Source: Corallium rubrum
Taxonomy: Eukaryota; Cnidaria; Anthozoa; Scleralcyonacea; Coralliidae
NCBI GenBank assembly: GCA_964035015.1
Contig: OZ035997.1
Location: 87,387,483 to 87,451,482 of the forward strand
Direction of reading: 5' to 3'
DNA length: 64,000 nucleotides
Part shown: one piece after another, positions 18,470 through 60,308 of the stretch
How the letters are laid out: each line of letters begins with the position of its first letter
Numbering within the stretch: position 1 is the first letter of the stretch
Translations under genes and position numbers: made by a program
Notes under the pieces: model-generated
Seen by the model: only the letters and a program-made list of their open reading frames with translations
What the model was told of the DNA's origin: nothing
Databases searched by the model: none

Positions 18470-18676
18470 TGTTCGAGATTGAGCTAAAAACAGACTACGT
18501 ATTTCCGCCGGAAATAACACGCATAGTCCTAAGCTGAAGACCGTGGGAACTGAGTTGTTGTTGTGCGGCCGTGCTTCGAGTGAGAGTATTAAACTAATCT
18601 GTGAACTATGAACTGTGAATAAAACCTTTAAAACCTTTTGTGATTTATCTTGGATATAAGCGAAAAGATTCAGGAT
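18470..18676 (+). repeat. 5' LTR of the BEL/Pao element
   Basis: It starts TGTTCGAGATTGAGC and ends AAAGATTCAGGAT. It contains an AATAAA at about 18618, a plausible polyadenylation signal. It is identical to the 3' LTR except for two base differences (AGCTGAAGACC versus AGCTAAAGACC, and GAACTATGAAC versus GAACTGTGAAC). Confidence 0.95.
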
Positions 18677-18679
18677 ACG

Positions 18680-18697
18680 TGGCACCCCCGATGGGAC
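18680..18697 (+). other. Primer-binding site of the BEL/Pao element
   Basis: TGGCACCCCCGATGGGAC begins 3 nt after the LTR. It starts with the TGG that pairs with the CCA end of a tRNA. I did not identify the matching tRNA. Confidence 0.7.
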
Positions 18698-18731
18698 TGT
18701 GAAAACCCATATATTAAACAAGAACGCGACA

Positions 18732-21700: not shown

Positions 21701-22421
21701 TCTTCTTTCCCAACTTGCTAAGATCTACGACCCTTTAGGTCTCGCGTCACCGACCACACTGGTTGCCAAACTACTGTATCGTGACATTTGTGATACCAAA
21801 TTGCCCTGGGATGCAAGACTACCAGAGACACTTTTGAAACGTTGGAAAGATTGGAGTGACTCAATGGTCGAAAACTTCACAATACCTCGCTCACTCACAC
21901 CACACCATCTGCCAATCACGGAGATTACCCTGCATGCATTTGGGGATGCAAGTTCGCGTGGAGTCAGTGCGGTAGTCTATGCAGTGGTCCGGCAAAAACG
22001 TGAAGTAACACAAGGTCTGGTTTGTGCCAAATCGCGCATCGCAAAATGTAACTTAACCATTCCACGGTTAGAGTTAATAGCTGGTCATATGGCGGTGAAC
22101 CTCGTGACTAATGTGAACGCAGTTCTCAAAGATCATCAAGTAAATATCCACTGCTGGCTTGATTCAACAGTTGCCCTCTACTGGATTAAGGGCCAAGGCG
22201 ACTATCGTCAGTTCGTAGCCAACCGCGTGAAAAAGATTCGACAACATGACCAAGTCACCTGGCATCATGTACCGACCTCAGAAAATCCTGCTGACCTGGG
22301 GAGTAGAGGGGGAGACGTCGTTAAAAACCAGCTGTGGAGAGAGGGTCCTACATGGTTAAGAAATCCTCCCGAATGGCCACCAGATGCAACTGTAGAATCC
22401 ACGGAGGTGAGGCTAAGGTGA
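18732..22421 (+). CDS. BEL/Pao Gag-Pol: gag, protease, reverse transcriptase, RNase H
   Basis: One open frame of about 1,230 codons. I chose the ATG at 18732 (MSVEIQ); the frame extends upstream to 18699 but without an ATG. It begins with a charged, probably coiled-coil region of about 150 residues, then a DUF1759-type gag segment (KFNGTYGDWPRFWSLY). Three zinc knuckles follow (CVYCNEDNHRSSEC, CFNCTGHAHRASEC, CKNCSKRHHTSIC), then an aspartic protease with LLDTGSGSSYA near 20190. The reverse transcriptase has LLTGDLKKAFLQIRI and LYVDDL (catalytic YVDD near 21403). A Peptidase_A17-like connection leads to RNase H, with AFGDASSRG, PRLELIAGHMA and HCWLDSTVALYW. The frame closes at a TGA at 22419-22421, just where the integrase should begin; the integrase continues in the -1 frame (22334-23998). 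The product would act in cytoplasmic particles to make cDNA. Confidence 0.93.
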   Translation: MSVEIQNSKTATSTNDAFVISETVLRTKITQLERATEKAETVIQTEKKRVIARHVDTLKETLSEVNRLRRDVEAEKIAKSIDAGEIDKWNDDVENKMETADGMIEMLEGWLEEQDAKIERLQRDQKVERENQEREERLHFELKLHEAKVKLQAEIIKQDTPQTNHETLKLQARLPKLQITKFNGTYGDWPRFWSLYSETIDKTSVPPVSKFSYLRELLCEKAKKTVEALPHTAEGYNRAIAILKDRFGKESEIVKTYVKEILDLPHIATTNAKRIHEFFEKLAYCVQSLETLKQLDAVNGTVSMILDKLPAIRGDLVRSDSNWESWNFVQFTEALRLWTRRNLVIEDAKSEDPSKKRDRQSRGCYQTQQRKGRQPGKPKACVYCNEDNHRSSECGSVTTAEERKKILANKKLCFNCTGHAHRASECKSTATCKNCSKRHHTSICDVNHETGQPDPEAGLTASRQEDHEIIYPIVVVEIDGIKTHALLDTGSGSSYASAKLIHALKKRPKQVKTRTVDMMLSSTTTKVEIYSASLAAVDGQFKMEIELSKVHKPQIMMTRNPNYKKLLAKYSHLEGVKINDQDEREQIPIHVVLGASEYAAVKTATAQKVGSPGQPVAEKTLLGWTVMSPGREDEESPVLLTQSTTTDYEQLCALDVLGLADTHEDDQQAVYQEFREQLERDEAGWYQTKLPWKGNHPTLPTNERGSKKRLDQLVRKLEKNNQYEEHNSIIQEQFQEGIIETAPEEPSGKVFYIPHKGVVRNNAESTKLRIVYDASARENNDQPSLNECLHPGPPLQNRLWDILVKSRFYPILLTGDLKKAFLQIRIKEEERDSLRFHWKEPSSNEMKVYRFTRALFGLTSSPFLLAGVLNQHFDNWKDQFPEVVQELRDGLYVDDLMTGGITVAETRGKKVIATNVFESATFSIQKWHSNATELEERGKSSPGTEEMTYAKQQLGGAEPNVGKLLGLPWNRGQDTISVILNAENGTTKRSLLSQLAKIYDPLGLASPTTLVAKLLYRDICDTKLPWDARLPETLLKRWKDWSDSMVENFTIPRSLTPHHLPITEITLHAFGDASSRGVSAVVYAVVRQKREVTQGLVCAKSRIAKCNLTIPRLELIAGHMAVNLVTNVNAVLKDHQVNIHCWLDSTVALYWIKGQGDYRQFVANRVKKIRQHDQVTWHHVPTSENPADLGSRGGDVVKNQLWREGPTWLRNPPEWPPDATVESTEVRLR

Positions 22422-23998
22422 AGAGGGAAATCTTCGCTGCAGTCACCACCAAGCAAGATGCCTTCGATTCCCTGCTTGACAAGTACAACGACCTGCCTAA
22501 AGTTTTAAGAATTGGAGCGTTTATACAACGATTCATTTGGAATTGTAGGAGCCAACCCCGACAGAGGAAAAGTGGTCCAATCAACAATCAAGACGTTGAA
22601 CAGCAGAGGCTATGGTGGATTAAGCGGGTCCAGCAAGCAGCACAACAAGACACCCACTTCCAAGCTGATCAAATCCAGTTGAATCTTCAACGCAACGACC
22701 AAGAGATCTTGGAATGTCGTGGTCGAATAAGCGGAGAGTACCCGATATACCTTCCAGACAAGCATCCCTTCACATCATTGTTAGTCTACCAAGCACACCT
22801 TTCCACTCTTCATGGCGGTGTCGGATTAACTATGGCTAAGGTACGGGAGCGTTACTGGGTACCGCGACTTCGACGCCTCGTTAAGAAAATTAGAAAGGAT
22901 TGTCCCGGCTGTAAGAGATTCCAAACAAAGGCATTCCAAGCACCTCCTCCAGGAAACCTACCAAGTACCCGAACTGAGGGAACTATGCCTTTTCAAGTGT
23001 TAGGAGTGGACTTTGCTGGCCCAATCAAGTACCGAATCAACGCAAAAAGAGAAGGAAAAGCCTATCTGACCTTGTTTGCCTGTAGTTTAACGAGAGCTGT
23101 CCATCTGGAATTGATAAGGTCATTAGAGACGGAAGATTTCATCGCGTGCTTCAAGAGATTTATCGCAAGGAGGGGAAGACCAGAGCTGGTGTATTCCGAC
23201 AACGGGGCCACCTTCAAGGCTGCTGTGAAATGGCTACAAAAAGTGAGAGAAGATGAGCAGTTCAACAATTTCCTTGCGGGTCTAGCTATCAACTGGCGTT
23301 TCAATTTAAGTCGAGCCCCCTGGTGGGGGGGTCAGTTTGAACGACTTATCGGTTTGTTCAAGAACGCCTTCTACAAATCAATTGGGAATGGCATACTCAA
23401 GTGGTCGGAGCTAGAGGAAGTGGTGCTAGACGTGGAGGTCACTCTAAATAACCGTCCGCTTACTTACTTGGAAGATGACATTCAACAACCAGTGCTTACA
23501 CGAAACTCCATGATCCAGATCAACCCAACTTACATTCCTGAACTTGAATCACACCACATAGCTGACAAGGACCTGAAGAAACGTGCTAAGTTCCTCAGAA
23601 TGTGCAAGCAAGCTATGTGGAATAGATGGAGTCGAGAATATGTGCGAAGCCTACGTGAACAGCATCGACGAGCAGGAGGAAAGGAAACACCCTACCCAAA
23701 AATTGGAGAGGTAGTCATTATCCGAGATGAGCAGAAACCAAGAAACCTTTGGAGACTAGCTGTGGTAACCCAATTGATAAAGGGGAGAGACGGTGTTGCA
23801 CGGGGAGCAATATTGCAAACTGGCAAGAGTACCATGGAAAGAGCTATCCAACACTTATTTCCCTTGGAGTTGTCATGTGATCGGAAGCAGATCCCACCAC
23901 TGAACCCTGATGCCCCTGTATTCCACCCAAGAGCTCGGAGAGATGCTGCGGTGGCGGCTACAATGCGGATACAAGAAATAGCAGAAAACGAAGATTGA
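22334..23998 (+). CDS. BEL/Pao integrase and C-terminal domain (shifted frame)
   Basis: This frame lies at -1 relative to the Gag-Pol frame and overlaps it by 88 nt, so its true entry point is not an ATG but a frame change within 22334-22421. Homology to BEL/Pao polyproteins resumes near AAVTTKQDAFDSLLDKY. The zinc-binding H-H-C-C module is visible as AHLSTLHGG and CPGCKRF (about 22795-22920). The catalytic core has D in LGVDFAGPI, D in VYSDNGATF and E in GGQFERLIGLFK, a normal DDE arrangement. A C-terminal DUF5641-type domain follows (PKIGEVVIIRDEQKPRNLW near 23697). It ends at a TGA at 23996-23998. The shift may be a one-base mutation in an otherwise young copy or a programmed event; no classical heptamer is obvious in the overlap. 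Confidence 0.9.
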   Translation: MERGSYMVKKSSRMATRCNCRIHGGEAKVKREIFAAVTTKQDAFDSLLDKYNDLPKVLRIGAFIQRFIWNCRSQPRQRKSGPINNQDVEQQRLWWIKRVQQAAQQDTHFQADQIQLNLQRNDQEILECRGRISGEYPIYLPDKHPFTSLLVYQAHLSTLHGGVGLTMAKVRERYWVPRLRRLVKKIRKDCPGCKRFQTKAFQAPPPGNLPSTRTEGTMPFQVLGVDFAGPIKYRINAKREGKAYLTLFACSLTRAVHLELIRSLETEDFIACFKRFIARRGRPELVYSDNGATFKAAVKWLQKVREDEQFNNFLAGLAINWRFNLSRAPWWGGQFERLIGLFKNAFYKSIGNGILKWSELEEVVLDVEVTLNNRPLTYLEDDIQQPVLTRNSMIQINPTYIPELESHHIADKDLKKRAKFLRMCKQAMWNRWSREYVRSLREQHRRAGGKETPYPKIGEVVIIRDEQKPRNLWRLAVVTQLIKGRDGVARGAILQTGKSTMERAIQHLFPLELSCDRKQIPPLNPDAPVFHPRARRDAAVAATMRIQEIAENED

Positions 23999-24137
23999 AC
24001 AAACAATTGTGAAACCTTTGTCAAGTATTTCAACAACTTAAACTTGTTTGTTAAAATTATTTGTTATATAGTAAATCTAGTACGAGATTACGTGAGAGAT
24101 GAGTGTTAGCATGTATATCTCTAACGGGAATATACAT

Positions 24138-24144
24138 GGGGGAG
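24138..24144 (+). other. Polypurine tract of the BEL/Pao element
   Basis: GGGGGAG lies 2 nt before the 3' LTR, the position used to prime plus-strand cDNA. Confidence 0.7.
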
Positions 24145-24146
24145 TG

Positions 24147-24353
24147 TGTTCGAGATTGAGCTAAAAACAGACTACGTATTTCCGCCGGAAATAACACGCA
24201 TAGTCCTAAGCTAAAGACCGTGGGAACTGAGTTGTTGTTGTGCGGCCGTGCTTCGAGTGAGAGTATTAAACTAATCTGTGAACTGTGAACTGTGAATAAA
24301 ACCTTTAAAACCTTTTGTGATTTATCTTGGATATAAGCGAAAAGATTCAGGAT
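24147..24353 (+). repeat. 3' LTR of the BEL/Pao element
   Basis: 207 bp, two substitutions from the 5' LTR, followed directly by the ATCTT target duplication. Confidence 0.95.
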
Positions 24354-24358
24354 ATCTT

Positions 24359-30306: not shown

Positions 30307-31262
30307 GATATACTAAATCTGCTAATATAATAATATACAATAAAAATAAAATACGTCTTGTAGATGTATATGAGATAATTACATCAATAAAATTATCGAG
30401 GTTAATCAGAGCTCTCGATAATTTCAATCGGTAGTTTATTCCACGACGTAGCTCCGCGATAGGAGAAGCTGGTTTTCAAGAAGTTTGTTTTGGGTTTTTC
30501 TAAATAGAGTTTTCGATCATTGCTTCTTAAATTGTATGGATTATTATTATGACTAGTAACGAATAAGTTTGATAAATAATTTGGTGTCATATTTTGTAAG
30601 GCCTTGAGTGTCATTAAATCTTCTCGTTTTTGCAGAATAGTTTTAATTGGTTCCCGTTTTAGTTTTTGGTAAATATCGTTTGATCTGACTTCATAAGTCG
30701 AACCCGTTACCACTCGAGCAGCTCGTTTTTGCAATTTATATAATTTGTCAATATTTGTACAATAACCATCATTCCATACGGTCGAGCAATATGTAAAGTG
30801 GGGTAGAACAAGTGATTTATACATTTTTAGTAGTGTATCTTCAGGTACAAAATTTTTTGCTCGTCTTAAAAGAGCGATAGCTTTAGAAATTTTTTTGCAT
30901 TGAATATCACTATGTTCTCTCCACTTTAGCTGTTCGTCAATAGTTACTCCTAAAGTTTTTTTATGTGGTACTCTTTCTATGATTTGGTCACCAATAAATA
31001 TTTTTAGGTTATGTGAGGTTTGATTCAATCGTAAAGTCCCGCGAGTCGAGATAAGGCTGGGAATCGAGCCTATGCCTAGACCCAATCAGCATGTATTCAG
31101 TTTTTCCTTTGTTTAGGGTTAATTTGTTAGCAGTTAGCTATTTGTGTACGTTTTCCGAATCTATATTAATCTTATTTTCAATATCTGAGAATGACGATCC
31201 CTGGCAAGTTAAATTGGTGTCATCCGCAAACACTGAAGTCTTTGTTTGTAATTTGAGGTAAG
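30262..31262 (-). pseudogene. 5'-truncated non-LTR retrotransposon (LINE), reverse transcriptase 3' half
   Basis: Read on the minus strand, the fragment starts within the reverse transcriptase at the catalytic FADDTNL motif (about 31213-31236). An in-frame stop lies shortly after, followed by a frame change at about 31085. An open stretch of 227 codons (31085-30402) then carries the thumb and C-terminal region: TLGVTIDEQLKWREH, a LPHFTYCSTVWND block and the ending FSYRGATSWNKLPIEI. This is the usual 3' part of CR1/L2-like LINEs common in aquatic invertebrates. It ends in a (TTAG)n microsatellite tail (30262-30306), typical of CR1/L2-type insertions. Truncation upstream of the RT core plus the internal stop make it inactive. 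Confidence 0.85.
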
Positions 31263-32118
31263 TTTATAGATTTCGCATCACTTTATTCTAACAGCATCAC
31301 ATTAGTCCTGTTTACCTTCTCCTCACGAATTCTATTAAACTTCACGAATTCTATTAAACTTTAACTAAACTTAAACTTTATATATTTATTTAATATTCAA
31401 CATATGTCTTCATAGATTGAGTTTAGATTTAGTGAAGACACCATGCATGCACAGAAAAATCTCGCACACAGCAAGAGTCATAGTCGTGACCCATCTGCAT
31501 TCCAGGAATTCAGCTGTAGAAATAGACACGCCAACAACTACCTGTAGCCGAACTTACAAGGGTCAAGGATATTTCATGGAAAAATAATCACTCTAGAATC
31601 AGTAGAAATGTAGTTGAAATTTAGAGTCGGAAATGCCATTTCCTGCATTCTGAGATGTGATTTTTAACATTCTGAGGGTTGCTTTTTAAGAACATTACTG
31701 AGTGGCAGTGAGTGCTTAATATAGCTGCTTTGAATGATTGAAAAAACCCTCAGATTGTAGTACATAACAAAGCTTATTTTTCATGTGCCTCGGTTTCCTT
31801 TGTTCTTTTAGGGGAAAATATTCAATAGCCCCTGACAAAGCAATAGATTAATATTACCCTCTAATATTCCCCTCTAAGGCTCTAATATTCCTCTCTACCA
31901 TTCCTCGCTATAATATTCTCATCTAATCTTCCCATTTAATATCCCCCGCACCACTCCTTATCTTATGAAATCCTGCCAACCTCGCCATCTGAAAAATATA
32001 AAGTACGTTATTTTGAGGCCCCTTGTGGATATGTGTTTATTCACCTCGGGCTTCACCCTTGGTGAAAAAATCACATACCCCTTCATGGCCTCAAAATAAC
32101 CTATATATAAACCAAAAA
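31263..32118. other. Intergenic AT-rich sequence
   Basis: No gene recognised. It has degenerate TCTAATATTCC repeats (31850-31945) and a hairpin at 32006-32101 whose arms are CGTTATTTTGAGGCC and GGCCTCAAAATAACC. Confidence 0.5.
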
Positions 32119-32473
32119 TAAACATAAAATTGAAACTCAAAATATGAGCTAAAAACAAGACAACAACTGAAACAGTGATATTTCGATTTTATTACAAAAT
32201 CATCATCAGACCAAGTGACTAGAATGAAATATCTACGTTCTATATATACAAGGATGGATAAATTTTAGAATTTTGAATTTTCTTATCTTGCCGTTAACCG
32301 TTGTAATATAACTCTAGTGATTTTAATCCTAGTTCACCATCCTTGTATATATAGCATGTAGATATTTGATTCTAGTCACTTGGTCTAATGATGATTTTGT
32401 AATAAAATCGAAATATCACCGTTTCAATTGTTGTCTTGTTTTTATCTCATATTTTGAGTTTCAAGATGTTTAT
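32119..32473. repeat. Foldback repeat with about 140 bp arms
   Basis: The arms at 32119-32262 and 32338-32473 are inverted copies sharing CAAGACAACAACTGAAAC, TTTCGATTTTATTACAAAAT and CATCCTTGTATATATAG-type blocks. The middle is about 75 nt and non-coding. Confidence 0.85.
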
Positions 32474-32705
32474 TTTCAGCTTATGCTTTGTCTTGTATTT
32501 TTTCAAAATATTGTCTGCTGTGCTGTGTGTTTGGTTTTTTTTTTGTAGTGCATAGTTTACATTTTTTGGGCACCCAAACCAGTGTACCGGCATCTCAAAA
32601 CCTCTGGATACAGCCCTGAATGGTCAATGGTCAGCCAGGTTACTGGCCAGGTGGCCGGTTAGTTCAGCGGTGTATATCAATGCAGAATGATCAAATCAAA
32701 CATGA

Positions 32706-32903
32706 ATCCATGCAGTCAGTCAGTCAGTTAGTCAGTCAGTCAGTCAGTCAGTCAGTCGGTCGGTCGGTCGGTCGGTCGGTCGGTCGGTCGGTCGGTCGGT
32801 CGGTCGGTCGGTCGGTCGGTCGGTCGGTCGGTCGGTCGGTCGGTCGGTCGGTCGGTCGGTCGGTCGGTCGGTCGGTCGGTCGGTCAGTCAGTCAGTCAGT
32901 CAG
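32706..32903. repeat. Tetranucleotide array (CAGT)n-(CGGT)n-(CAGT)n
   Basis: About 50 units. CAGT units form both edges and CGGT units form the core. Reading frames across it give SVSQSVGRSV repeats, which I regard as non-genic. Confidence 0.97.
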
Positions 32904-33194
32904 CGTTGTCTCGTCACCCGGCATACATACGGCACACGCAATGATGTTCACTGGTATCTGGTGCGTCAGCTGTCAGGAAAAGTTCGTAAAAATGACCGAA
33001 AGTTGTAAATTTCTGAATATGAAAAGGATGATTAACGAAAAGGCAAATACCACTCCGCCAAAACTTTGTGGATGAGTAGATGATTTCTTCCCGCCAAAGA
33101 TCTTTGGTGGGAGGGGCCTGGAATGCAGTCGAGTTAAGTCGTGATCTTCCACAATAACATTTGCATTTATCAGGGGCCACGGAGCGTCTTTTAA

Positions 33195-33226
<32 letters not shown>

Positions 33227-34084
33227 GGGGGGGGCTAAACAGGAGCAGATCGCGAGTGGCGTAGGTGCGAGTCTTCCTAGGGGGGTCCGGGGCATTCCCC
33301 TCCCCCCCCAAAAATGACTGATTTTCAGTCAGTTCAGAAGTTTATAAAATTTCATATTTTGGACTGTTTTGGACTGTGTTTTTTTTATGTTGACAACGTA
33401 CGTACAGCATTTGGGGGGAAGATTGTAAAGAGTTTTTTATCACTAATCAAAATTCTCAAATCATGCCGTGTTTAACTGTTTCTAATAATTTTAAACCTAC
33501 ATGCTTCGCAGATGATATGTGTTGACAGACTAGCCCAAATTAAGATGTCCATTTTCTTATGCATTGAGTTTTTTTATTATAACTTTTCTTCTCCCATAAG
33601 ACAAACCACATATTTTAGATCCACAAAAACCCCCACAAAATCTCATTTTAAAAGAAACCACAAATCTCATTTTAGAATCAACAGTTTATACATGCAAACC
33701 ATTACCTAACCCTCCCCCCCCCCCCCACCACCACCACCACCAACACCTCCACGGCCCCTGTTTATTCTGTAAAAATTATGAAGTCAAGGAGAAAGTTACA
33801 AATGAGTGAAAATCATCAATTCATTGCAGACACCAAAGGCTGCTGAGTGTAGGCCCCATATAAGTTATATGCAATGCCACTAATTAAAAATCATTGTTAT
33901 CCTGAGTGAGTGAGTCATACTGGATTTTCATGCTTGCTGAGCTTATAATACAAAAGATACTGCATGACACAGTAGCCCAACCTGGCCCCAAGATTTACTA
34001 GGCCAGAGGCCTTCTGCATGAAATTGTGACTGGTGTTTTTGATTTTGCAGTTGATATTTTCTGAAATTTGTTTCTAGCTACACA
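32904..34084. other. Intergenic sequence upstream of sulfite oxidase
   Basis: It holds a TG tract plus a 25 nt G run (33196-33234) and a C run followed by CCA repeats (33713-33750). No gene recognised. A TTTCTAG acceptor-like site precedes the sulfite oxidase ATG at 34085, so a 5' UTR exon may lie upstream. Confidence 0.5.
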
Positions 34085-34513
34085 ATGCTTTCTTTGCAAA
34101 GAAGCCGTCAGGGATTTTCTCCATCACTGCTGCATAAATGTTTCAGCCAAGGTGATGTACAATTTGGTAGACTGGTTCATACCAGGGCTGAAAAGAACTA
34201 TCATGGCAGAAAATTATTTTGGAGCAGTTTATTCATTGGGTCAGTTGGAGCAGGCATTGCTTTGACCTACAACAAACACTCTCTCAATGCAAAATTACAT
34301 CCAACCCCACCACCCTCCCCACCCCTCCCCAGCCTCTTCAACTCTTTACTCAAAAAAAGATGTCGCAAAACACAACTGCTTGGAAAATGGCATCTGGATG
34401 ACATATCAAGGTCATGTTTATGACATCACAAAGTTTGTTGCAGAGCACCCATGGTGGAGATAAGATCCTGTTGGCTTCTGGGGGTCCTTTGGAACCATTT
34501 TGGGCAATGCATG
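34085..34513 (+). pseudogene. SUOX: Sulfite oxidase, N-terminal coding part (disrupted)
   Basis: The ATG at 34085 opens a basic, serine-rich leader (MLSLQRSRQGFSPSLLHKCF), then a hydrophobic segment near residues 45-62 (WSSLFIGSVGAGIALTY). Mitochondrial sulfite oxidase has this layout before its haem domain. A cytochrome b5 domain follows (LYSKKDVAKHN, GIWMTYQGHVYDITKFVAEHP, then GGDKILLASGGPLEPFWAMH). Two frame changes are visible: one in the C-rich stretch at about 34310-34340, where an alternative is a short cryptic intron with acceptor CCCCAG, and one at 34449-34453 inside the haem-binding HPGG motif. The coding sequence stops at 34513, where a gypsy LTR begins; it resumes in the correct register at 41761. 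The enzyme oxidises sulfite to sulfate in the mitochondrial intermembrane space using Mo-cofactor and haem. As assembled, this gene cannot give full-length protein without excision or splicing of 7.2 kb. Confidence 0.85.
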
Positions 34514-34611
34514 TGTTAGACTGTGATTATAAATGTTAGAGAATAAATAGACCGAAATAATAGTTAATTTAACTCAGCGGAAATGTTGCGTAAGGCACAT
34601 CATGATTGACA
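34514..34611 (+). repeat. Truncated 5' LTR of the gypsy element
   Basis: It matches the first 98 bp of the 3' LTR with about three substitutions, then breaks off at ATTGACA, where pol sequence follows. The break lies at a short sequence also present in the full LTR. Confidence 0.9.
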
Positions 34612-37600
34612 ACGGGGAAAAGACAGAGATTCTGTGGGACACTGGAGCTCAGGTATCCATTGTTTCAGCAAGCTTCATGAAGGAGAACTTTCCAAACGTT
34701 TTGATTAGAGATACGAGCGAACTAGTGGATGGTGATCTTACTGTGACTGCAGCCAATGGTAGCAACATACCGTATAAAGGATGGGTAGAACTAGATTTAT
34801 AAATCGGAGATTCTGAACACACACTTTTGGTTCCCTTTTTAGTAGCAAACGAGGAGGTGGAACTTCCTTTGGTTGGCTTCAATGTTATTGAACATTTTAT
34901 TAAGGACAACAAACTTCAAGGCAGCGATATGGAAACTGCTTTCGTTAGTGCAAATGCTTGTGATGCGACAGCCCTTGCCGATTTTGTGAACAATGTCAAC
35001 CATGATGAATTGTGTCTTGTAAAGACATGCAAGAAAGATGTGCTTATACCTCGAGGCCAGTCTGTGAAAGTAAGCTGCAGGGTGAACACTGGTCCACTAG
35101 ATAAACGAACACCAGTTTTGTTTGAAGCTGATGAGAACAGTCAGTGGCCTTCTGGGATTTAAGTTGTTGACACATTATTGACGGTAAATGTGGGCAAATC
35201 TAGTAAAGTGGAAGTGGAGGTAAAGAATATGACCAACCATGACATTAAGTTAAAGAACAGAACAGTACTAGGCCGTCTACAACTTATTCAATCAGTTGTT
35301 CCTGTGGAGGTGAAATTAAAGACAGATGGATCTACCGGACAATCATCTCCACAACAAAACGAAGAAAACAACAGCGCGGCAACTTTCCAGAATAATCGCG
35401 AACCAATAAACTTGCCGAACAATTTGAAAGACGTGGATTTAGGTGACTTAAACAGTGAGCAAAGAGAAACTGCTGCGCAGCTGCTGATCGAACAGGCCGA
35501 TGTATTTGCCCAAGACGACGATGACATTGGTTGTATCTCTGATCTCCAAATGAACATCCAACTCAACGACACCACACCTGTTCAGAAGAACTACGTCGCT
35601 GTTCCCCGACCATTGTATCCAGAAGTGAAAGCTTATGTTGAAGATTTATTGAATAAAAATGTTATTCGCAAATCGACATCATCCTACAGTTCGCCTGTGG
35701 TTTGCGTTAGAAAGAAAGATCAGAGCCTAAGGTTATGTGTGGATTATCGTGAGCTGAACAAGAGAACTCAAGTAGATCGTCATCCTATTCCTAGGATCCA
35801 GGAAACCCTAGACAATCTCGGTGGCAATTCATGGTTTTCGGTACTTGACCAAGGGAAAGCCTACCATCAAGGGTTCCTCAAGGCCGAAAGCCAGCCTCTC
35901 ACTGCGTTCATAACACCATGGGGGCTGTACGAGTGGGTGCGCATTCCTTTTGGACTTTGCAACGCACCAGCCTCTTTTCAGCATTTCATGGAAATGTGCC
36001 TTGGGGATTTACGAGATGAAATATGCGTGCCATATCTGGATGACATTATCGTCTTCAGCACATCTTTCGATAAACACATTGTACACCTTCGAAAAGTCCT
36101 TCAGCGCCTGAAAGAACATGGTGTCAAGTTGAAACCAAAAAAGTGTACCATGTTCAAGCGAGAGGTTTTGTTCCTTGGACGAGTCGTTTCAGAAGAAGGA
36201 TACAAGTTGGATCCGTCTACAATTACACCCGTACTTCGTCTGAAAGAAACTCCTCCCAAAACCATAAACGAGGCCCGGAAACTAATGGGATTTTTGAACT
36301 ATTATCGTCGATATATCGAGAACTTTTCACGGATTGCCAAACCAATTTACGACCTGGTAAAGTTAGTGGACAAAGACGAAACGAACGCCAATCCCAAGAG
36401 AAAACGACGCAGCCAGCCACCTCCAAACCAAGAAATTATTTGGACAGAAACTCACCAATCAGCTAAGGAGCAACTTATCGAATGTCTTGTAAGCGTCCCA
36501 GTGATGGCATACCCAGAACCCAATAGCCCTTATGTACTGCACACAGATGCATCCGAAAGCGGACTAGGTGCTGTGCTCTACCAACAACAAAACGATGTTC
36601 TGCGTGTTATTGCTTATGGTTCTCGCACATTAACTCCAGCAGAGAAGAATTACCATCTTCATTCCGGCAAATTGGAATTTCTCGCTTTGAAGTGGGCAAT
36701 TTGTGAACAATTTAGGGACTACCTCTACTATGCTCCAAGTTTTCTTGTGTTTACAGATAACAATCCATTGACCTATGTCTTGCCAACCGCTAAGCTAAAT
36801 GCCACTGGACTCGGTGGGTTGGGGAGCTAGCGGGTTTCCACTTTACAATACGTTATCGACCAGGCAGAGCAAACGCTGACGCCGACACGTTATCCCGAAC
36901 TCCGAATGATATGGACGAGTACATGAGATCGTGTACGGAGGAAACCAGTCAAAACGAGTTACGAACAATCATTCAAACCGTGCAGCTTCAAGAACAGGGA
37001 AAGGTGAACTGGGTATCTTCGTTGACTAACGATCCAAGTATTCTCAGTGCCGACGCATCACGCCCTCTAGAGAACAACGGACCAACACTCGAATTAAATG
37101 ACATTCGACAGGCCCAAACCGAAGATAGTGTTATTGGTACAGCGTACTCGTTTATCAAAGCAAACAAACGACCCACCATAAGTCAGCGAGCCCGTGAATC
37201 AGCCGACACACGCCTGCTTTTCCACGAATGGCAGAAACTAGCAATCGACGCACATGGAATCTTACGAAGGAAAAGTGGTCCACGCAACCAAATAGTTCTT
37301 CCCAGAAAGTATCACCCTATGGTTCTGAGAGAGCTTCACAACAATATGGGTCATCTGGAATCTGATCGGGTTCTACACCTCGTAAGAGATCGATTTTATT
37401 GGCCGCGAATGCAAAGTGATGTGGAAAATTACGTTAAGAACCTCTGTCACTGTATTAAACAGAAACCTCAAAGATTAAAAAACAGAGCTCCACTTCAACC
37501 AATCCTTACCTCGTCGCCATTCGAGTTGGTATCAATAGATTTTGTTCACCTAGAAAAGTCGAGTGGAGGATTCGAGTATATCCTAGTGATTGCATGTTGA

Positions 37601-38303
37601 TCACTTTACGCGATATGCCCAAGGGTACCCTACCCGCAACAAGACAGGAAGAACAGTGGCAGAGAAACTGTACAACGATTTTGTGCTACGTTTTGGATTT
37701 CCCGCCAAATTCCATCACGATCAGGGTGGCGAATTCGAGAACCAACTCCTCCTGAGACTTCAACAGCTATGTGGTGTAAAGCATTCCCGCACAACACCGT
37801 ACCACCCACCAGGAAACGTACAGGTGGAACGATTTAATAGAACGCTGCTGGATATGCTTCGAACACTTCCTGACAACGAGAAGTCGCACTGGAAAGATCA
37901 CGTAAACAAGGTGGTGCACGCGTATAACTGCACGCGAAAGGATTCGACCGGGTATTCACCATTCTTCCTCCTGTTTCGACGACACCCCCGGCTACCAATC
38001 GACCTTATTTTTAACTCCAGCACATCAACACCTAATAAGAACTATCCACAGTACGTTTCACAATGGAGAAATGCAATGCAAGAAGCATACCAACTAGCAG
38101 GACAGAAGATGAATCAGAGAGGTTCTACAGCCAAGAAGTACTACGATCGTTGGCTACGGAGTTCAGTTCTACAGCCTGGTGATCGAGTTCTGGTGCGAAA
38201 CCTGAGTGAACGTGGTGGTCCTGGAAAGCTTAGATCATACTGGGAAAATGACGTTCACGTCGTGGTTCAACGGAAAGGTCTGCAAAGTCCAGTTTATGAG
38301 GTT
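34602..38303 (+). pseudogene. Gypsy pol: protease, reverse transcriptase, RNase H, integrase (broken)
   Basis: Segments in order: retropepsin-like protease with LWDTGAQVSIV (34630), closed by a TAA at 34800-34802; a linker ending in a stop at 35160-35162; then a 550-codon frame with reverse transcriptase ([40 protein letters not shown] with the catalytic YLDD at about 36030) and RNase H ([16 protein letters not shown]). A frame change at about 36820 leads into the RNase H end (ADADTLSRTPND). The integrase zinc module (LRELHNNMGH, CHC) and catalytic core follow. A frame break at about 37590 precedes the second catalytic Asp ([10 protein letters not shown]) and the Glu ([14 protein letters not shown]). 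The C-terminal GPY-like region ([11 protein letters not shown]) is interrupted at 38303 by an insertion. Inactive. Confidence 0.9.
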
Positions 38304-40303
38304 TTTTCGTCCGGCCCTGATATTATCCGCCACTGGTGATGGATAACTTCGATTCGTTGTGGATCTGTGTGGTTTTGACCAAAATTATCCCCCATGGGCT
38401 TAAAATGACCCTGAAAGATCCCTTTTTAAAATGAAACCTTTATAATGATATGCCATGAAGTACTACCCGAGCTCTGAGCGATGAAATATAATTGAAATAC
38501 GAAACCGGAAATTTGGTCGTGGCGTGGCGAAACAACACGAAGAAAATGGCTTTTTTTGGTCAATATATAAGCGAAACCAACCAAATTTTTAGCTGTAACT
38601 GCTCCTAAAGTAAGTATAAGCATTTGTTTGATGTAACTAGAAATACATAAATGCAACAACCCCTCGTCTGCTTTTATATGGTTTTTGAAATGCACCCCAC
38701 CCACCCCACCTTCCAATTAAAATAAGCACTCTTGATATAACTCCTCAGGATAATTACAGAATTTATGATTAGGATGACTGAAATGAAAGTTGAACATATC
38801 AAAGGAAAACTTACAGATTTCATATTAAACTCTGGTTGTAAAAATATATTGTTTTTAGCCATTTAGGAAGTTTCCATAGGAATTACGTTTATGTTTTGCA
38901 AAGGCAGGATTAACACTTAACAGCTCAAAAACTACATTTATAATAGGAGATAAAAACAACAGACAACCTATAAATTTCAGTCTGTATAATACAGGAAAAA
39001 AGAAAATGGACAAAGCCTATGAGTATTTATGATAAGTGCTTGCAATTAAGTCAATGAAAAACATCACGTCCACAGTAGCAAAGGGAAAGCATCAAAGCAC
39101 GAAAACATGAAGCTGTATACTGCTTAATGGTAAAGCAAAAACTCGAAAACAACATATTATTAAAGTAACTGACGAGTGCCTAAAAGGGTTCTATTTAAAC
39201 GTCTTGCCGTTCTTGGCGTTTACAGAATATATTAATGAATAAATGCTGATTACAATCACCAAAATAAATAAATACAAATGCCCTACCGTCAGTTTTTGTT
39301 TACCATACGGCGTTTGGTTTCTTCAGGTTTTCTGGTTTCTCTTCAAGATATATTAAACCGGCTGTTTGTATCCTTCTTTTATTTGTTGTTCTGCTTCTTT
39401 CCGTTTAAAACAAAACCATTTGAAACCATTTTGTTTCGCAAAATATGGAAATAACTATAATAACTATACGTTTTCTTCAAAGCTAGTCACCAGTGCCCAA
39501 TTATTTTACCGCGTGACACCCTACGACGTATATATATAAACTATTTCCAGATTTTTGTCTCCCTTGCTTTTTCTACACGCGTGTAAAGTGGACTCCACGC
39601 ATGTCGGGATTAGCACCCTCACCCGGGCTCCGGGCCTTCGGCCCTACGCCCGAGCTCGGGGATTATTTCGTAGATTGGCAATAATTTGGTAAAATTTGAC
39701 GAAAATGAACTCAGCCGATCGGCCGTTTTTTCGAACAAAATTTGCCTAGACTTGTCGGCGTTGTAATGGCTCACAGGAGTAAATATCATGCAAAATAACA
39801 ACAAATTTGAATAGCTGACTTAAAAACGATCTTAATGATGTATTATGGTCGTATGTTCTTGTTTAATTCTGTTTTAATTTGTAAATTTCCAAAATAAGTG
39901 ATCCCGCTCGACGGCACCACGGGGGGTCGCCCAATGAAAAATACTAAAAAATCAATATAATATTCGCATTTTATTATATTGCTTTAATTTTTTCAATTTG
40001 AATTTGTGAAATAGTGCTTTTCATTTTACTTCCCCAAACTTTGGTGCTAAAGTCATTTATTGTTTAAATATTTAACATTTTGTTGTAGATTATAATAATA
40101 TTATTAATAATAATTAGCATAAATTAGCATAATTTGCAAAATGGGTTGTCTGACAAGACCCGACAATCCAAAATTTGAATAGTAGAGGTGAAAACGATTC
40201 AAATGATGTATTGTGGTATTATTTTTGTGTTATTATGCCATGCTAATTCACAAATTTGCTGAGACCACCTGCTGTGAGTGGTTTTCGCGCGAGACAAGAA
40301 TGA
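38304..40303. mobile_element. 2.0 kb insertion inside the gypsy pol tail
   Basis: Pol homology stops after VYEV at 38303 and resumes with KSETTGTKSRILHRN from 40307. GTT occurs at both junctions (38301-38303 and 40304-40306), a possible 3 bp duplication. The insert has no clear terminal inverted repeats and no protein I recognise. It includes a GC-rich patch (39597-39665, CCCGGGCTCCGGGCC and CCCGAGCTCGGGG) in otherwise AT-rich DNA. It is younger than the gypsy insertion. Confidence 0.7.
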
Positions 40304-40306
40304 GTT

Positions 40307-41086
40307 AAGTCTGAAACTACAGGAACGAAAAGCCGAATTTTGCACAGAAATTTACTGCTTCCGTGCGACTTCTTGCCAGTTGAACGTCAACAGACTAATG
40401 CTACCTCAACAATTCCACCACAACGACCACGTAACAAACGGAAACAAAGGCTCGTTGTCCCAGTAACGAACAATAGCGAAACTTCCACTGACGACGAAGA
40501 GATGCCTGATGTTGTCACGATCTTCAACCCCAGAGACGCAGTTCAAAATCCCCACCACGAGAGTGTTCCGGAGACCGAAATTGTTCCAGAGATCGAAATT
40601 GTTCCAGAGACTGAGATTGTTCCAGAGAACGTTAGGCATAACGATCAGCTGCAAGACGTATTACCTGCAGCACCTGAAGACAATAACGACCATGGTGAGC
40701 AAGATGGTGCAAATCAAATTGGTGAAATGGAAGCGCCTCCATTGGTGGAACCAAGAACAAGAAGAGTGAGACAACCACCTGACCGCCTAACGTACTACGG
40801 ACGTGGCCAAGTAGGACCAGCAAACCTGTTTCACACGTCGGCAACATCTCCACCAATTCGTTGGTGTCCACCTCACCTGTTTGCGACCAATACGCCTTTT
40901 CCACTTGTCTACCCACCACCCATGTATGGATCGCCCGTCGTTAACATACCTTACCTATTTCCCAACCACAACACCCCGTACCCTAACCACAACTTACCTT
41001 ATCCACTCACCAACTTCCAGCAACCTGTATGTGGACAGTCAACGATGCCTTATCAAGCCAACTGGAACTTTAATCCATATTATTAA
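40307..41086 (+). pseudogene. C-terminal tail of gypsy pol
   Basis: After the 2 kb insert the polyprotein continues with LHRNLLLPCDFLPVE. An acidic stretch with four 'PE(T/I)EIVPE' type repeats (40575-40635) follows, then a proline/tyrosine-rich tail ending NFNPYY and a TAA at 41084-41086. Such low-complexity tails are common at the ends of gypsy polyproteins of marine invertebrates. Cut off from the rest of pol, it has no independent start. Confidence 0.8.
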
Positions 41087-41441
41087 ATTAACTCTTACTA
41101 GTACAATTATTATAAAAAAAAAAATGCTCCATAACGTTTACGCTATACTGTTTAAGATACATGAGTATCTAGAAGCTATCATGCGAGACGAATAGATTTG
41201 ATACCAATTGGTGATACAAGCTGCAGCGTATTATTCTAGTATTTGATAGAAGAAAAGAGATGATTATAAATTTGATAAGTAGGATCCTGTCAAAGTTTTT
41301 CAAGTATGATGATAGCGTTCATGAAGAGAATACCTCTAGAATAACTGGGTACCACATGGTACCTCCAGTTTTTTGAAGATCAGTATGTTGAGAAGCCCCA
41401 GTTAGTGTCACGGGACGACACTTATTTCAAGAGGGGGAATA

Positions 41442-41760
41442 TGTTAGACTGTGATTATAAATGTTAGAGAATAAATAAACCGAAATAATAGTTAATTTAA
41501 CTCAGCGGAAATGTTGCGTAAGGCTCATCATTATTGACAGTCGAAACCAGAGCACATGGTTTCTAACTCAATTATTAGGTCTAGTGTTTCAGAAGTCAGG
41601 TCAGTGTCGAGATCGACACACGTGGAAATAATAGAAGTGTAAGAACGACGTGTAAATATTTGGGTTAAACTCGGAAAATAAAGTATAAGTTGGAGTCTAC
41701 TTTGTCTTTGGTTTACGTTGGTAATCCTGGTATAAAGAACCTGAACGAACAAGAGTAACA
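41442..41760 (+). repeat. 3' LTR of the gypsy element
   Basis: 319 bp, TGTTAG...AACA, preceded by a purine tract AAGAGGGGGAA (41430-41440). It contains AATAAA-type signals, and the CATG target duplication follows directly. Confidence 0.92.
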
Positions 41761-42754
41761 CATGCTGTCCACCAGGAACCAGAGATTATTAAGATGCTTG
41801 ATAAGTATAATATTGGTGAGCTCAAAGCAGAAGACAGGAAATTAGTATCCGACACCAACGACCCATATGCTAATGATCCAGATCGTCACCCATCTCTTGT
41901 TGTACGCTCAAAGAAGCCATTCAATGCTGAGACACCACTGGCCTTACTTGGTGACAGTATGGTCACGCCAAATTATTTGTTCTATGTTCGTAACCACCTT
42001 CCAGTGCCTGAAGTTGATCCAAAGTTGTACCAACTTGAGGTGAATATTGGTAAAGATGTTAAGCCATTAAAGTTGACATTGGACCAATTAAAAAGCAAGT
42101 TTAAACAACACACATTTGCAGTAGCCATTCAGTGTGTAGGTAATAGGCGAGATGAAATGAATGCTATTAAGAAAGTCAAAGGACTCACATGGGCTGAGGG
42201 GGCAATTGGAAATGCATATTGGACTGGAGTCAAACTACGAGACATTCTACTCGAGGCAGGCTACAGCGCAAACGATGCCACTGATGCAAAACATGTGCAG
42301 TTTGAAGGCTTAGATTTTGATGCATCTAAGACTCCTTATGGTGCTTCTATTTCATTAAAGAAGGCAATTGATCCTGAGGGAGATGTCTTAGTAGCATTTG
42401 CTATGAATGGTGAAGATATCCCTAAAGATCATGTTTATCCTATCAGGGTCATTATTCTCGGTGTGGTTGGAGCTAGACAAGTAAAATGGCTTTCAAAAAT
42501 TTCACTGAGTGATGAGGAAAGTCATTGTCATTGGCAACGTAATGATTACAAAGGTTTCTCTCCAAGTACTGACTGGGATACAGTAGATTTTAAATCAGCA
42601 CCATCCATTCAAGATCTTCCTGTCCAGTCCGCTATTTGTGAACCTGCAAATGGTGCATCGTTGGAAGAAGGAACGGAAGAGTTTACTGTTAAAGGTTACG
42701 CGTGGAGTGGAGGTGGACGAGATATTGTGCGTGTTGATGTTTCCCCCGATGGAG
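41761..42754 (+). CDS. SUOX: Sulfite oxidase, molybdenum-cofactor and dimerisation domains (exon)
   Basis: This resumes the sulfite oxidase frame directly after the gypsy element (HAVHQEPEIIKMLDKY); the second His of AVH is at the position of the second haem ligand. The Mo-cofactor domain follows: DPYANDPDRHPSLVV, FYVRNHLPVPEVD, and QCVGNRRDEM with the Cys that ligates molybdenum. Next come ARQVKWLSKISLS, HWQRNDYKGFSPS and the dimerisation domain (VKGYAWSGGGRDIVRVDVS). It is open throughout. The donor is GAG|GTTTGT at 42754/42755. The gypsy insertion lies between the two haem-binding histidines, so the coding sequence on both sides belongs to one protein. Confidence 0.92.
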
Positions 42755-42932
42755 GTTTGTATCCAAGTTGACACTAAAGAGGTTAATTTGCATTTAATGT
42801 TTGTACAAAATGGTGCCACGCTCAGCAACACTTCTTTGCACTAGTAACTTCTAGTTATAAATTATTATTTATGTAATGTAATTACTGAACTTAACTTCAA
42901 GAAAATAGAAAAGTTCGTTTTGCTTCTTGCAG

Positions 42933-43177
42933 GAAAAACATGGCAAATAGCTGAACTGAAAAAATCTGAAGAGCCAGAAGGACGGAGTTGGGGTTGGACG
43001 CTATGGGAGAGTACTATTCCAGTGAATAATCGTGAAACTATAGAGGTATGCTGTAAAGCTGTCGATTCCTCGCACAATACTCAGCCTGGAACTGTTGCAC
43101 CTATATGGAATCTGAGTGGTGTTCTTTCAACCGCTTGGCATCGTGTTAAAATTACTGTACCACCGGATGAAGAGTGA
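42933..43177 (+). CDS. SUOX: Sulfite oxidase, last exon
   Basis: The acceptor TTCTTGCAG precedes 42933. The split glycine codon is completed and the frame reads KTWQIAELKKSEEPEG, then CCKAVDSSHNTQPGTVAPIW and GVLSTAWHRVKITV, the conserved C-terminal dimerisation domain of animal sulfite oxidase. Stop TGA at 43175-43177. The intron is only 178 bp. Confidence 0.93.
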
Positions 43178-44506
43178 TCAACCTTTCTTATTTTGATGTA
43201 AACGATCGATAATAAGCCCCTGAAAATAACCTCTTCCGAAGATAAGCCGCCTACTTCTTAGACATAATTTTTTTTTTAAAGAAGTGATAAGAAGTAATAT
43301 TGGGCATTTCACTCGATTACATAGCATGTTCTAGGGATTTTTGGTGAAGGAAAATTCGAGTGTAGAATATATGCATTTTAAGACCAAACCGGGACCAGTT
43401 GCCAAAAAAGATCTTGCACAGTATCAGGGAATTTAATAATATTATCCAGCTGTATACGTTATAAAATTTGTTGCTGTAACGTATTCCGGTGATTCCGATT
43501 CCAATATACGATCGAGAAACGAGATTTAATAATGCCGCCGCCGGCGTAGACGTAGTTGATCGTCGTCGCAATTTCATGCATGCGTATAATACAAGATCGA
43601 AGTTTCAGTTTCGCCGTTTTTTCAGGTATTTCTTTAATTTTTTAACAGTTTTTAGGATACCACAACACGCTAGGGGGGTTTATATATTGAATTTTATAAA
43701 TATTTTATATAAAACTTCACTTTTTCGTGGCTGAACTCTAGCTGTTTTATAATAGCAGTTGCCCCGCTCTGGTATGATGTTGACAATATATTTATATTAA
43801 AATATTCTTTCTTAATGTTCAACTATGCTATGTGTCTATCTATACTCATGGTCAAAATGGCAGTCCACTGGACTCATATGTCCACTGGTCCGTGTAAAAG
43901 TCCGCGATTGGGGACGAAATCTATTTGTCGACGGTCCCTTATTATCAATAGAGCTGTCTAATCTTGTCTCATTAATAGTCAGTATGTCAAATGGTTGTTC
44001 GTAAATAAATATTCTAAATTCTAAGTTCCTCAATATGTTCAATTAAGCTTGTAATATTGAGGTGGCCAATTTTAAATCCTCTTAGTTTTTGATAAACAAT
44101 TTTACTCGATGGTGATAACTGATTCGTTGAAGTCATATCTACTGATTCGCAATCGTCTTGTGAAGATACTACTCAAATCTGTAGAGCGAGACATAGACGA
44201 TGTTTTCATCGCTTCCGAAGCAACAGTTTCGTTAACCGCAGATCAATTTCAAAGCAATCGGATGTTTATCACGTGGTACATGAGAATACACCTCGTGATT
44301 GCTTTGAAATTGATCCGCGGTTAATAAAACTGACACTTAGGAAGCGATAAAAAATCGACCATGTCTCGCTCTACTGATTTGAGTAGTATGCCCAAATTTT
44401 CGTGGTTGTTAGTCGAATGTGGGAAGCTACGCGTTGGATAAACTAGTCAATTATCAATGTTATTTACAATAAATTCTTTGATGTTTTTAGCTAATACTGT
44501 GGAGCC
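43178..44506. other. Intergenic sequence with one foldback repeat
   Basis: The first few hundred bases probably include sulfite oxidase 3' UTR. At 44165-44390 there is an inverted repeat with arms of about 90 bp (AGATACTACTCAAATCTGTA / CTGATTTGAGTAGTATG; ATTGATCCGCGGTTAA / TTAACCGCAGATCAAT). No gene recognised. Confidence 0.55.
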
Positions 44507-51659: not shown

Positions 51660-52896
51660 CTACATACCACGTGTAATCCAAGCTAAGCTTTGCTGCGCGT
51701 GACCCGATACTCCGCTTTGCACCAACCTCTTGAGGATCCATTGAGCCAAATGCGTGCAAGATTTCTCGGTTTGGTCCTTTGTGATCAGCAAGATTCCGTT
51801 GCCGTTCCCTCCCAAGGTTTCGGCGATCGGATGGGTATCCAAGACGAAAAAAGCCTCTCTGTTGACTCCGACGATGAACGTGTACGGGTCACAAGTATAA
51901 AGACCTACTGCACTGGATGTGCCACGAGCCTGTGTGAGAATGGCGGTGATGAGACGATTTCTACCAGAAATGGAAAACACGGCCTGCTGCTCAATGAACT
52001 CTTCAGAGAGTATAGAATTATCCATCAGACCATATTCTCTCATCAAACTGTACGCCGAAATCGGTTCATATGTCTGGTCTATGTTTCGTAAAGGGTTGAT
52101 CAAAAAGGGAAGCTCTGTGATAATGTTCTCCGCAAAGGTTCTTAGTTCGTCCCATTCGATGGCGTATTTCGTAGCCAGAAAGTGGTTACATATGCCCAGG
52201 CAAAGGAAAACGCATGCATTGGTGCCATCGTTCTTAGGAATTCGTCTCTGCTGTTGGTTGTGAAAACGTTCAGCTAACATGCAATTAACTTTGTTTAGCG
52301 CAGTGGACTGACTGACTTGCAGATGCACTAAGGAAAGCGATGCCTCAGGCTGATTGCCCGACAACATTGACGATAATGTAGACGCTGTAGGTCTCAATCC
52401 GGCTCTTGAGGTCGCGGTGAACGATGTTGTTTTCATGAAGATACGTTAGGCCATCAGCAATATTTCGAGCAGTCGGTGTTTGGAATTTCTTCAGCGAAGA
52501 AAAATCGAGTTGGCCATCGATGAACTGCAGGAAGTCGCTAAGAGATGTGACGATCTTTTCTACTCCAAATGGACGGAAGTAAAAGCAAAGATATTCCATC
52601 ATTATCGCGTACGGTTCAACGCAAAAAGCGAAAAAACAAGCAATGTTTTTATGCCCCTTTACCTCATGGAGTAGTCGCGCTTCTTTTAGGAATAAGCGTT
52701 TACTCTCTCTATCCACAAGACGTAGCTTCTTCACGACAACCTCTTCCCCTTTATATTTTCCCGAGTAAATCGCACCAAATGAACCTGGGCCAAGCTTGTC
52801 GTTACGCGAAAAATCCGTCCATTTAAAAGTTGGAAGCCCAGGATTTAAATTCTCCGCTCGCAATGTTAATTTTGGAATACTGAAAACCCCGGCCAT
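51660..52896 (-). pseudogene. Protein kinase N-lobe fused to a cysteine-peptidase-like domain, kinase C-lobe missing
   Basis: Minus strand. The ATG at 52896 starts MAGVFSIPKLTLRAEN. A kinase N-lobe follows with the glycine loop (LGPGSFGAIYSGKYKG), the beta-3 lysine (VVVKKL), helix C (LFLKEARLL), a MMEYL hinge and the catalytic loop start NIVHRDLKS (about 52400). The frame then runs out at 52345-52347. The DFG motif and the whole C-lobe are absent, and the downstream domain is read in another frame (overlapping, ending 51660). That domain has PKNDGTNACVFLCLG with a candidate catalytic Cys and, about 145 residues later, FFVLDTHPI. A Cys then D-x-H order is like the UL36/M48-type papain-fold deubiquitinases (inference). 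A deletion with frame shift probably removed the C-lobe. Kinases of this RIP/TKL look are numerous in cnidarians. An unannotated intron is a possible but less likely explanation. Confidence 0.6.
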
Positions 52897-53930
52897 CGTT
52901 TAAAATAACTTATCCAAACGCTGTCTCTGACTCTCATGAAAAAAGGTTTGCTCGATAACGCCAGCATACAGAAAGATTTCAAGCGGTGAAAGTGTCGTGA
53001 GGCAAAATGTGTGAAATAATTGAAAACAACGATCCGCGTTGTAACCTCACCCCTGATCACCTGGCCATAAGTTCTCGCCAAACGGAAGAGAGTTCAAATT
53101 TGTAATCGTGTTCCTATTTTATTTTATTTTATATTGAATAACGATATAAATATATAGAAGAGACTTATGCCTTTATTAAATATACAGTGCACGATTCCGA
53201 TACATGCAATAACAAAGGGAAAAGGTTTAAATTTACCACTTATATAAACTTATTAACTTTCCGTTTGCATGCGCGTTCTTAACAACAACAGGAAATGCGG
53301 AACTTTATTGATCAGTTTGATCATTCGAGAAATTTCTACAAATGAAGCGTTGCCGGACGGACTCCCAATGCCATTATATGCCGTAAAGTCCAAGACCTGT
53401 TTAAGTAAGGAGCGATTTCACATATATGATACCTTGAAACGTCAGCAAAACAACCAGCATGCGCAAAAATAACACCGGATTAAAGCTAATTATCCAAAAG
53501 CGGTCGATGACTGATAAAATAAAGAACTAGCTACGAACAGTGCCATATTAAATGCGTGTTGTAAATGCCAATGAGAACAGTATACTGTGCTTTCTATAAT
53601 AATCTCGTAAATTCGTAATATTATTTGAGTCGTTAGCGATGTTTACAACGCGTATTAAACTTTGAATTCTTCCGACATTTTGAATTCTTTTTCTCTTTCG
53701 GTTTATATCTACAGGGTTTTATATGAAACACTGCACGCCCTCACGGATATAAGCGTTAAGTTGTCCCGAGATATAAGAATATCTCGTGTACTTATGTTGG
53801 ATCGAACTCGCCGCGAGTTCAAATCCCGCTCGAGTCAGCCGAAATTTTTCGGTTGACTTTAAATTAGCATTGTAAGACATCATGAAAAATTTTCTTAGGG
53901 TTTTATATCTAATATGATCTTATTTTATGT
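52897..53930. other. Intergenic sequence 5' of the kinase gene
   Basis: No gene recognised. It presumably includes the promoter of the minus-strand kinase gene. Confidence 0.45.
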
Positions 53931-59168: not shown

Positions 59169-60308
59169 CATAGGAATCCCAATAAATAGTTTTGTAACAA
59201 ATAAAAAGCGTAAATTTGCCTAATTTTCAATAAATTTGCATTGTATTAACCTTCTTTGACTGCTTTCAATCTTGCGCTTTGAATTCTGTGACGTAAGCAA
59301 ATCGCGTATACGAAGCATAAGCTATAGTATTTGAGAAGGAAGGAAACTCTTTCAATCATCTACACATACCTACGAAATTCGCCGACAAAATTTCGTGTGA
59401 AAAAAACAACAAAACCTCAAATAAATTAGCACAAATGAAAATTTGATACTCAAACAACATTATTTCAGAAAAAGAATTTTAAAAACCAGATAAAAATGTA
59501 CAAAAAATGTACAAAACTTTTGCTTATTTGCCGAGAAATTTTGTGGGACGATGCGGGATGCGATTAGCGGTTTGAGGAGCGAATCTGATTGGTCGAAAAA
59601 ATAAACAAACTGGCTTGAGATTTCTCAAAACCGGGGGGGAGAGTTGAAAGTTGTAAGATAAGCTTAAAAAGAGCGGGAAAACACGAAAGGACAAAAATTT
59701 TGAAAATATTATTTTAAAATATATGAAATACTTTTTTAAACGCAAGTGCACTATATTTTAAAATAATATTTTCAAAATTTTTGTCCTTTCGTGTTTTCCC
59801 GCTCTTTTTAAGCTTATCTTACAACTTTCAACTCTCCCCCCCCCGGTTTTGAGAAATCTCAAGCCAGTTTGTTTATTTTTTCGACCAATCAGATTCGCTC
59901 CTCAAACCGCTAATCGCATCCCGCATCGTCCCACAAAATTTCTCGGCAAATAAGCAAAAGTTTTGTACATTTTTTGTACATTTTTATCTGGTTTTTAAAA
60001 TTCTTTTTCTGAAATAATGTTGTTTGAGTATCAAATTTTCATTTGTGCTAATTTATTTGAGGTTTTGTTGTTTTTTTCACACGAAATTTTGTCGGCGAAT
60101 TTCGTAGGTATGTGTAGATGATTGAAAGAGTTTCCTTCCTTCTCAAATACTATAGCTTATGCTTCGTATACGCGATTTGCTTACGTCACAGAATTCAAAG
60201 CGCAAGATTGAAAGCAGTCAAAGAAGGTTAATACAATGCAAATTTATTGAAAATTAGGCAAATTTACGCTTTTTATTTGTTACAAAACTATTTATTGGGA
60301 TTCCTATG
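59169..60308. repeat. Near-perfect palindrome with 0.56 kb arms
   Basis: The left arm 59169-59723 (555 nt) and right arm 59752-60308 (557 nt) are reverse complements with a 28 nt spacer. The only difference I can find is a homopolymer: 7 G in the left arm and 9 C in the right. The arms carry no ORF conserved beyond chance. Confidence 0.9.

Follow-up and report, generated by a model that had tools for sequence, protein, structure and literature searches.

The stretch of Corallium rubrum DNA analysed here, which comprises 64,000 nucleotides of contig OZ035997.1 (positions 87,387,483 to 87,451,482; referred to below as the window, in whose coordinates positions are given), carries the remains of a sulfite oxidase (SUOX) gene whose haem exon is split by a gypsy-type long terminal repeat (LTR) retrotransposon. 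Gene remains and element are both read on the forward strand. The SUOX reading begins at 34085 (MLSLQRS...) with an N-terminal part that contains a presequence-like and a membrane-like stretch (34085–34303; open, and alike in the second copy described below), and passes through a C-rich linker (34304–34334) into the first part of the Cyt-b5 haem domain (34335–34512), which is cut after 34513. The piece at 34335–34457 matches PF00173 (Cyt-b5) of Pfam at 8.2e-10; a second piece, 34438–34512 (25 residues), returned no Pfam match, and was found to resemble the SUOX haem domain 1mj4 in a sequence search of solved structures (1.8e-5). On the far side of the element, an open reading frame at 41765–42754 encodes the remaining haem domain, the molybdenum (Mo) cofactor domain and the start of the dimerisation domain; it is followed by a GT-AG intron of 178 bp (42755–42932) and by the last exon (42933–43177), which encodes the end of the dimerisation domain and terminates at the stop codon 43175–43177. 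This 3' part matches PF00174 (Mo domain, 2.4e-55) and the dimer domain PF03404 in Pfam, and its best match among solved structures is chicken SUOX, 1sox (E 2.4e-116).

The locus therefore combines the Cyt-b5, Oxidored_molyb and Mo-co_dimer domains of a sulfite oxidase, in the same order as in animal mitochondrial SUOX (chicken 1sox), with the haem domain present only in separate pieces. The stretches CxGNRR, RNHLPVP and NDYKGFSP, which we take to be active-site stretches, are present as in the animal enzyme. Unlike animal SUOX, the window copy has a haem exon that is split by a retrotransposon and bears two frame breaks, and it is altered at residues common to chicken SUOX and the second C. 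rubrum copy. Its haem-domain frame is not continuous, being interrupted by the element (34514–41760) and by a stop codon at 34461–34463, and this is not the structure of a gene for a working enzyme.

The element, TGTTAG...GTAACA, begins immediately after GCAATGCATG (left junction, 34513/34514) and ends immediately before CATGCTGTC (right junction, 41760/41761), and is flanked by two copies of the tetranucleotide CATG (34510–34513 and 41761–41764). These features agree with the initial annotation of the locus, which had proposed a gypsy-type element within the SUOX haem exon. When the flanks are joined at the duplication they give ...GPLEPFWAMHAVHQEPEII..., and the haem coding phase continues across the element, as had also been proposed. 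CATG had further been regarded as the sole duplicated sequence, but the first 98 bp of the LTR are repeated as well, with 3 mismatches between the 5' remnant and the 3' LTR.

This 5' LTR remnant (34514–34611; 98 of 319 bp) joins the protease region directly, across the common letters ATTGACA. The protease, reverse transcriptase (RT), RNase H and integrase region occupies 34612–38303, and of these the protease is assigned by the motif DTGA, which we take to be diagnostic, and not by a database match. RT, RNase H, H2C2 and the integrase core were matched in Pfam in the order expected of a gypsy-type element, ahead of the 319-bp 3' LTR (41442–41760); for the integrase, rve lies 0.1 bit below its cut-off and rve_3 above it. 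A stop codon at 35160–35162 and frame changes at ~36.8 kb and ~37.6 kb break the pol region, and its integrase tail is interrupted by a nested insertion of ~2.0 kb (38304–40299), which has ATGAG at both edges and is without clear terminal repeats. The rest of the element (40300–41441) includes a purine-rich tract next to the 3' LTR. The RT/RNase H/H2C2/integrase order, TG...CA LTRs, purine-rich tract and 4-bp duplications are those of Ty3/gypsy-type elements (Metaviridae), from which the window copy differs in having lost most of its 5' LTR and ~2 kb of its 5' interior, and in its nested 2-kb insert.

Comparison with related copies, conducted like all genome searches in the window's own assembly (474 Mb in 312 contigs), clarified how the element was damaged. 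The 319-bp LTR returned 38 genome matches among those listed, two of which are the window element's own. Twelve LTR loci were fetched for comparison, and three of them (L011, L012 and L018), besides the window's own, hold an interior end. In all three, the stretch matching 37.9–38.3 kb runs straight into that matching 40.3 kb, which identifies 38304–40299 as a nested insert in the window copy. In C56, the one related copy compared at the 5' end, the positions that abut at 34611/34612 in the window are 2,232 bp apart, a distance that takes in the remainder of the LTR and the interior behind it; the 5' LTR was truncated by a deletion that spared the outer end and the target duplication. The initial annotation had missed this damage: with its shortened 5' LTR, the loss of 2,232 bp, the nested insert and the broken pol, the element is not complete. 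Duplications of 4 bp were observed at three of three other LTR pairs, spaced 7.1–7.2 kb, and at four of five apparently solitary LTRs, L020 being the one without; this count excludes L013, L019 and L021, which are in opposite orientation, and of L012 and L018 only a single end was viewed. The 4-bp duplication is therefore a trait of the family, and the CATG signature in the window, as expected of a gypsy-type LTR retrotransposon, is unlikely to be due to chance.

Upstream of the element the haem exon is not in register over its whole length, contrary to what had been assumed. Alignment with the second copy shows that the window linker is 10 bp longer, which constitutes the first frame break, and that the HPGG codons differ by one base in length, a difference that results in the stop at 34461–34463, 5' of the element. 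The haem exon is interrupted three separate times, namely in the linker, in the HPGG codons and by the element. Removal of the element by splicing was considered and rejected: the five GT sites in 34440–34515 score from -1.1 to -5.4 with a donor matrix entered by hand, compared to 0.7 for the donor of the next intron, AG sites in 41650–41830 are preceded by at most 55% pyrimidines, and one in-frame pairing, 34513 with 41775, would drop a haem histidine and leave the upstream frame breaks in place. An intron within the linker, with its best donor at 34152 (score 3.4), was likewise rejected, as the N-terminus and linker of the second copy form one uninterrupted reading.

That second copy, an uninterrupted SUOX gene of the kind that the initial annotation had envisaged elsewhere in the genome, is complete and lies on contig C12. 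A Mo-domain search of the genome gave two matches, the window locus (hereafter also C1) and C12:9681061–9682038, with 97% identity, and both a PF00174 family search and a DNA search with the haem exon likewise gave two matches; no SUOX locus beyond these two was found among the best candidates scored. The rest of the window yielded no further SUOX copy, with only weak N-terminal matches (E 0.19 and 0.89). The C12 gene has a stop-to-stop open stretch of 484 residues up to the intron, which it shares with the window copy, and contains all three SUOX domains; the counterpart of the insertion site reads GCAATGTATGCTCTCC, without an insertion. Searches of viral and prokaryote collections, which find close relatives only, returned no relatives of the Mo domain, and the titles and abstract beginnings in the literature yielded nothing on this locus. 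An insert of 369 bp directly follows the C12 SUOX stop; judging by its CAGG...CCTG ends and the 8-bp duplication GAGTGATC, it is presumably hAT-like.

The similarity between the two loci is colinear from 31251 to 43408 (forward strand), where it takes in host sequence to the left and right of the element, and spans 5,488 bp on C12. Outside this segment, comparison of the 64-kb window with 70 kb of C12 revealed only short scattered matches, the longest of 232 bp. Over 1,418 bp 3' of the element the copies reach 98.6% identity, and in the aligned flanking noncoding sequence, once gaps and unaligned repeats are set aside, they differ at 136 of 2,472 sites. Since colinearity is confined and the intron is kept, the two SUOX loci look like dispersed duplicates that arose at the DNA level, rather than alleles; a retrocopy origin is likewise at odds with these observations. 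With its intact reading, its shared intron and the flanks that both loci have in common, the C12 gene is what is expected of the partner of a duplicated pseudogene. Of the three options initially offered for the locus, a second gene copy is supported by the C12 SUOX and the limited shared segment, and a heterozygous insertion and a null haplotype are not.

The coding differences between the copies indicate which of them has drifted. There are 31, of which 22 change an amino acid and nine are silent, giving, with 355 silent and 1,256 changing sites counted outside the linker, a ratio of changing to silent differences per site (pN/pS) of 0.69. A count of changing differences this high has a probability of 2e-7 at an omega of 0.1 and 8e-4 at an omega of 0.2, and by our own estimate a pN/pS of about 0.55 is expected for one neutral and one constrained copy at omega 0.1. 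Constraint over all coding sites is accordingly relaxed. A chicken counterpart is available for 18 of the 22 changing differences, and ten of these are informative. At nine of the ten (p 0.02; read by eye from alignments), among them sites in QCAGNRR, DHG and IIPGVVG, the chicken SUOX residue equals that of C12, for which reason the window copy appears the likelier drifting one, in both its haem and its Mo domain.

Taken together, these data make it very probable that the window locus is a transposon-disrupted duplicate SUOX pseudogene whose complete counterpart resides on C12. We infer the following order of events, together with the window copy's lack of function and the role of C12 as the working gene. 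SUOX would have been duplicated at the DNA level as a segment of ~5.5 kb with its intron kept, yielding two dispersed copies, of which that on C12 would have stayed intact. A gypsy-type element would then have integrated into the haem exon of the window copy, generating the 4-bp CATG duplication; two small length changes would have broken the frame upstream of it, and the element itself would have been damaged afterwards, or was already so, by the 5' deletion and the nested insertion. Transcripts of the window locus would encode at most a truncated or haem-less fragment, and sulfite oxidation would be expected from the C12 gene.

Several observations weigh against this interpretation. The Mo and dimer exons (~1,220 coding nt) are without a frame break, and for the 3' part alone (19 differences, pN/pS 0.62) the relaxation of constraint is less firm, with probabilities of 1e-4 (omega 0.1) and 0.015 (omega 0.2), so that weak constraint may remain there; a product may also be made from this part. 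One of the ten informative sites favours C1 as the conserved copy, the outgroup consists of the distant chicken SUOX alone, and the short length differences upstream may be due to assembly error.

The locus is nonetheless most likely an ordinary pseudogene rather than a sign that an essential enzyme has been lost. It shares with known transposon-disrupted duplicated (non-processed) pseudogenes the kept intron, shared flanks, intact partner and mostly amino-acid-changing differences, and nothing sets it apart from them except a possible downstream gene conversion. The apparent paradox of an essential enzyme broken by a transposon is removed by the complete second copy in the same genome, and to be broken in this manner is an ordinary fate of duplicates. 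For annotation, the C1 locus should not be taken for a working SUOX gene, nor the species for SUOX-deficient.

The age of the break is a separate matter. The intact downstream exons had been interpreted as a sign of recent disruption, an argument countered by the two upstream frame breaks and by an element that is partly deleted, carries a nested insert and has at least three coding breaks. At the break rate of the element's pol, the absence of any break in 1,221 nt of downstream coding sequence has a probability of 0.37, and clean 3' exons are therefore weak evidence for a recent event. They would in part be explained by interlocus gene conversion from C12, which would have refreshed the 3' exons and masked the age of the break; this process, which is compatible with the pseudogene reading, we regard as evenly poised between having occurred and not. 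From the element to the stop codon, C1 and C12 differ at 20 of 1,413 positions. Silent and intron sites downstream differ at 7 of 449, compared to the 136 of 2,472 in the flanks (p 1e-4), and the intron range 42746–42924 alone at 1 of 179 (p 0.001), while the divergence at silent sites upstream, 3 of 85, is indistinguishable from that of the flanks (p 0.63). Furthermore, the block of low divergence is bounded by the element in C1 and by the 369-bp insert after the stop in C12. A similar pattern could, however, arise if mutation rates varied along the region or if constraint were hidden. In addition, gaps and unaligned repeats do not enter the flank figure, and the copies show no difference over the last 57 bp ahead of the insertion site either, so that the edge of a tract need not be the element. 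A pseudogene can thus keep misleadingly clean exons, perhaps through gene conversion.

If, alternatively, a second SUOX gene had still been working when the element, very recently, entered it, the open Mo and dimer exons, the normal splice sites and the low downstream divergence would follow; this scenario is improbable in view of the two upstream frame breaks and the damaged element with its nested insert. Moreover, at nine of ten informative sites C12 and chicken agree on a residue that C1 lacks, so that constraint probably lapsed earlier. The LTRs of the window element differ at 3 of 98 positions; in three other pairs the counts are 10 of 956 when entire LTRs are compared (p 0.11) and 1 of 292 when the comparison is restricted to the first 98 bp (p 0.05). 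The divergence in the window leans towards an older insertion, although not firmly, and provides no date.

Still less credence is due to the proposal of a single SUOX locus, represented by C1 and C12 as alleles or haplotigs, with a heterozygous insertion or null haplotype. The identity of 98.6% over 1,418 bp 3' of the element is of a degree that occurs between alleles in some animals, but the scattered matches of at most 232 bp outside the shared segment and the 136 differences in 2,472 flanking noncoding sites are at odds with one locus. It is least likely of all, and barely conceivable, that the 3' LTR acts as a new promoter from which the first in-frame ATG further downstream, at 41794, starts a haem-free, untargeted Mo and dimer sulfite oxidase, a product comparable in layout to plant sulfite oxidase (1ogp), since the apparent drift of the window copy in the Mo domain speaks against such an enzyme.

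Elsewhere in the window, a BEL/Pao-type element at 18470–24354 has end repeats of 208 bp that are 99% alike, and Pao peptidase, RVT_1, H2C2 and DUF5641 matches over two overlapping frames. Open stretches at 2667–2945 and 4764–5018 (region 2667–5018) gave WD40-type matches, PF12894 above its cut-off and others below, and are presumably WDR82-like. A protein kinase domain fragment on the reverse strand at 52348–52899 (PF07714, 2.2e-18) is possibly an exon of a host gene. An inverted repeat at 59169–60308, with arms of 475 nt that are 100% complementary and separated by 190 nt, represents either a young foldback element or a feature of the assembly, and a tandem array at 61823–62935 consists of 5.4 copies of a 206-bp unit.

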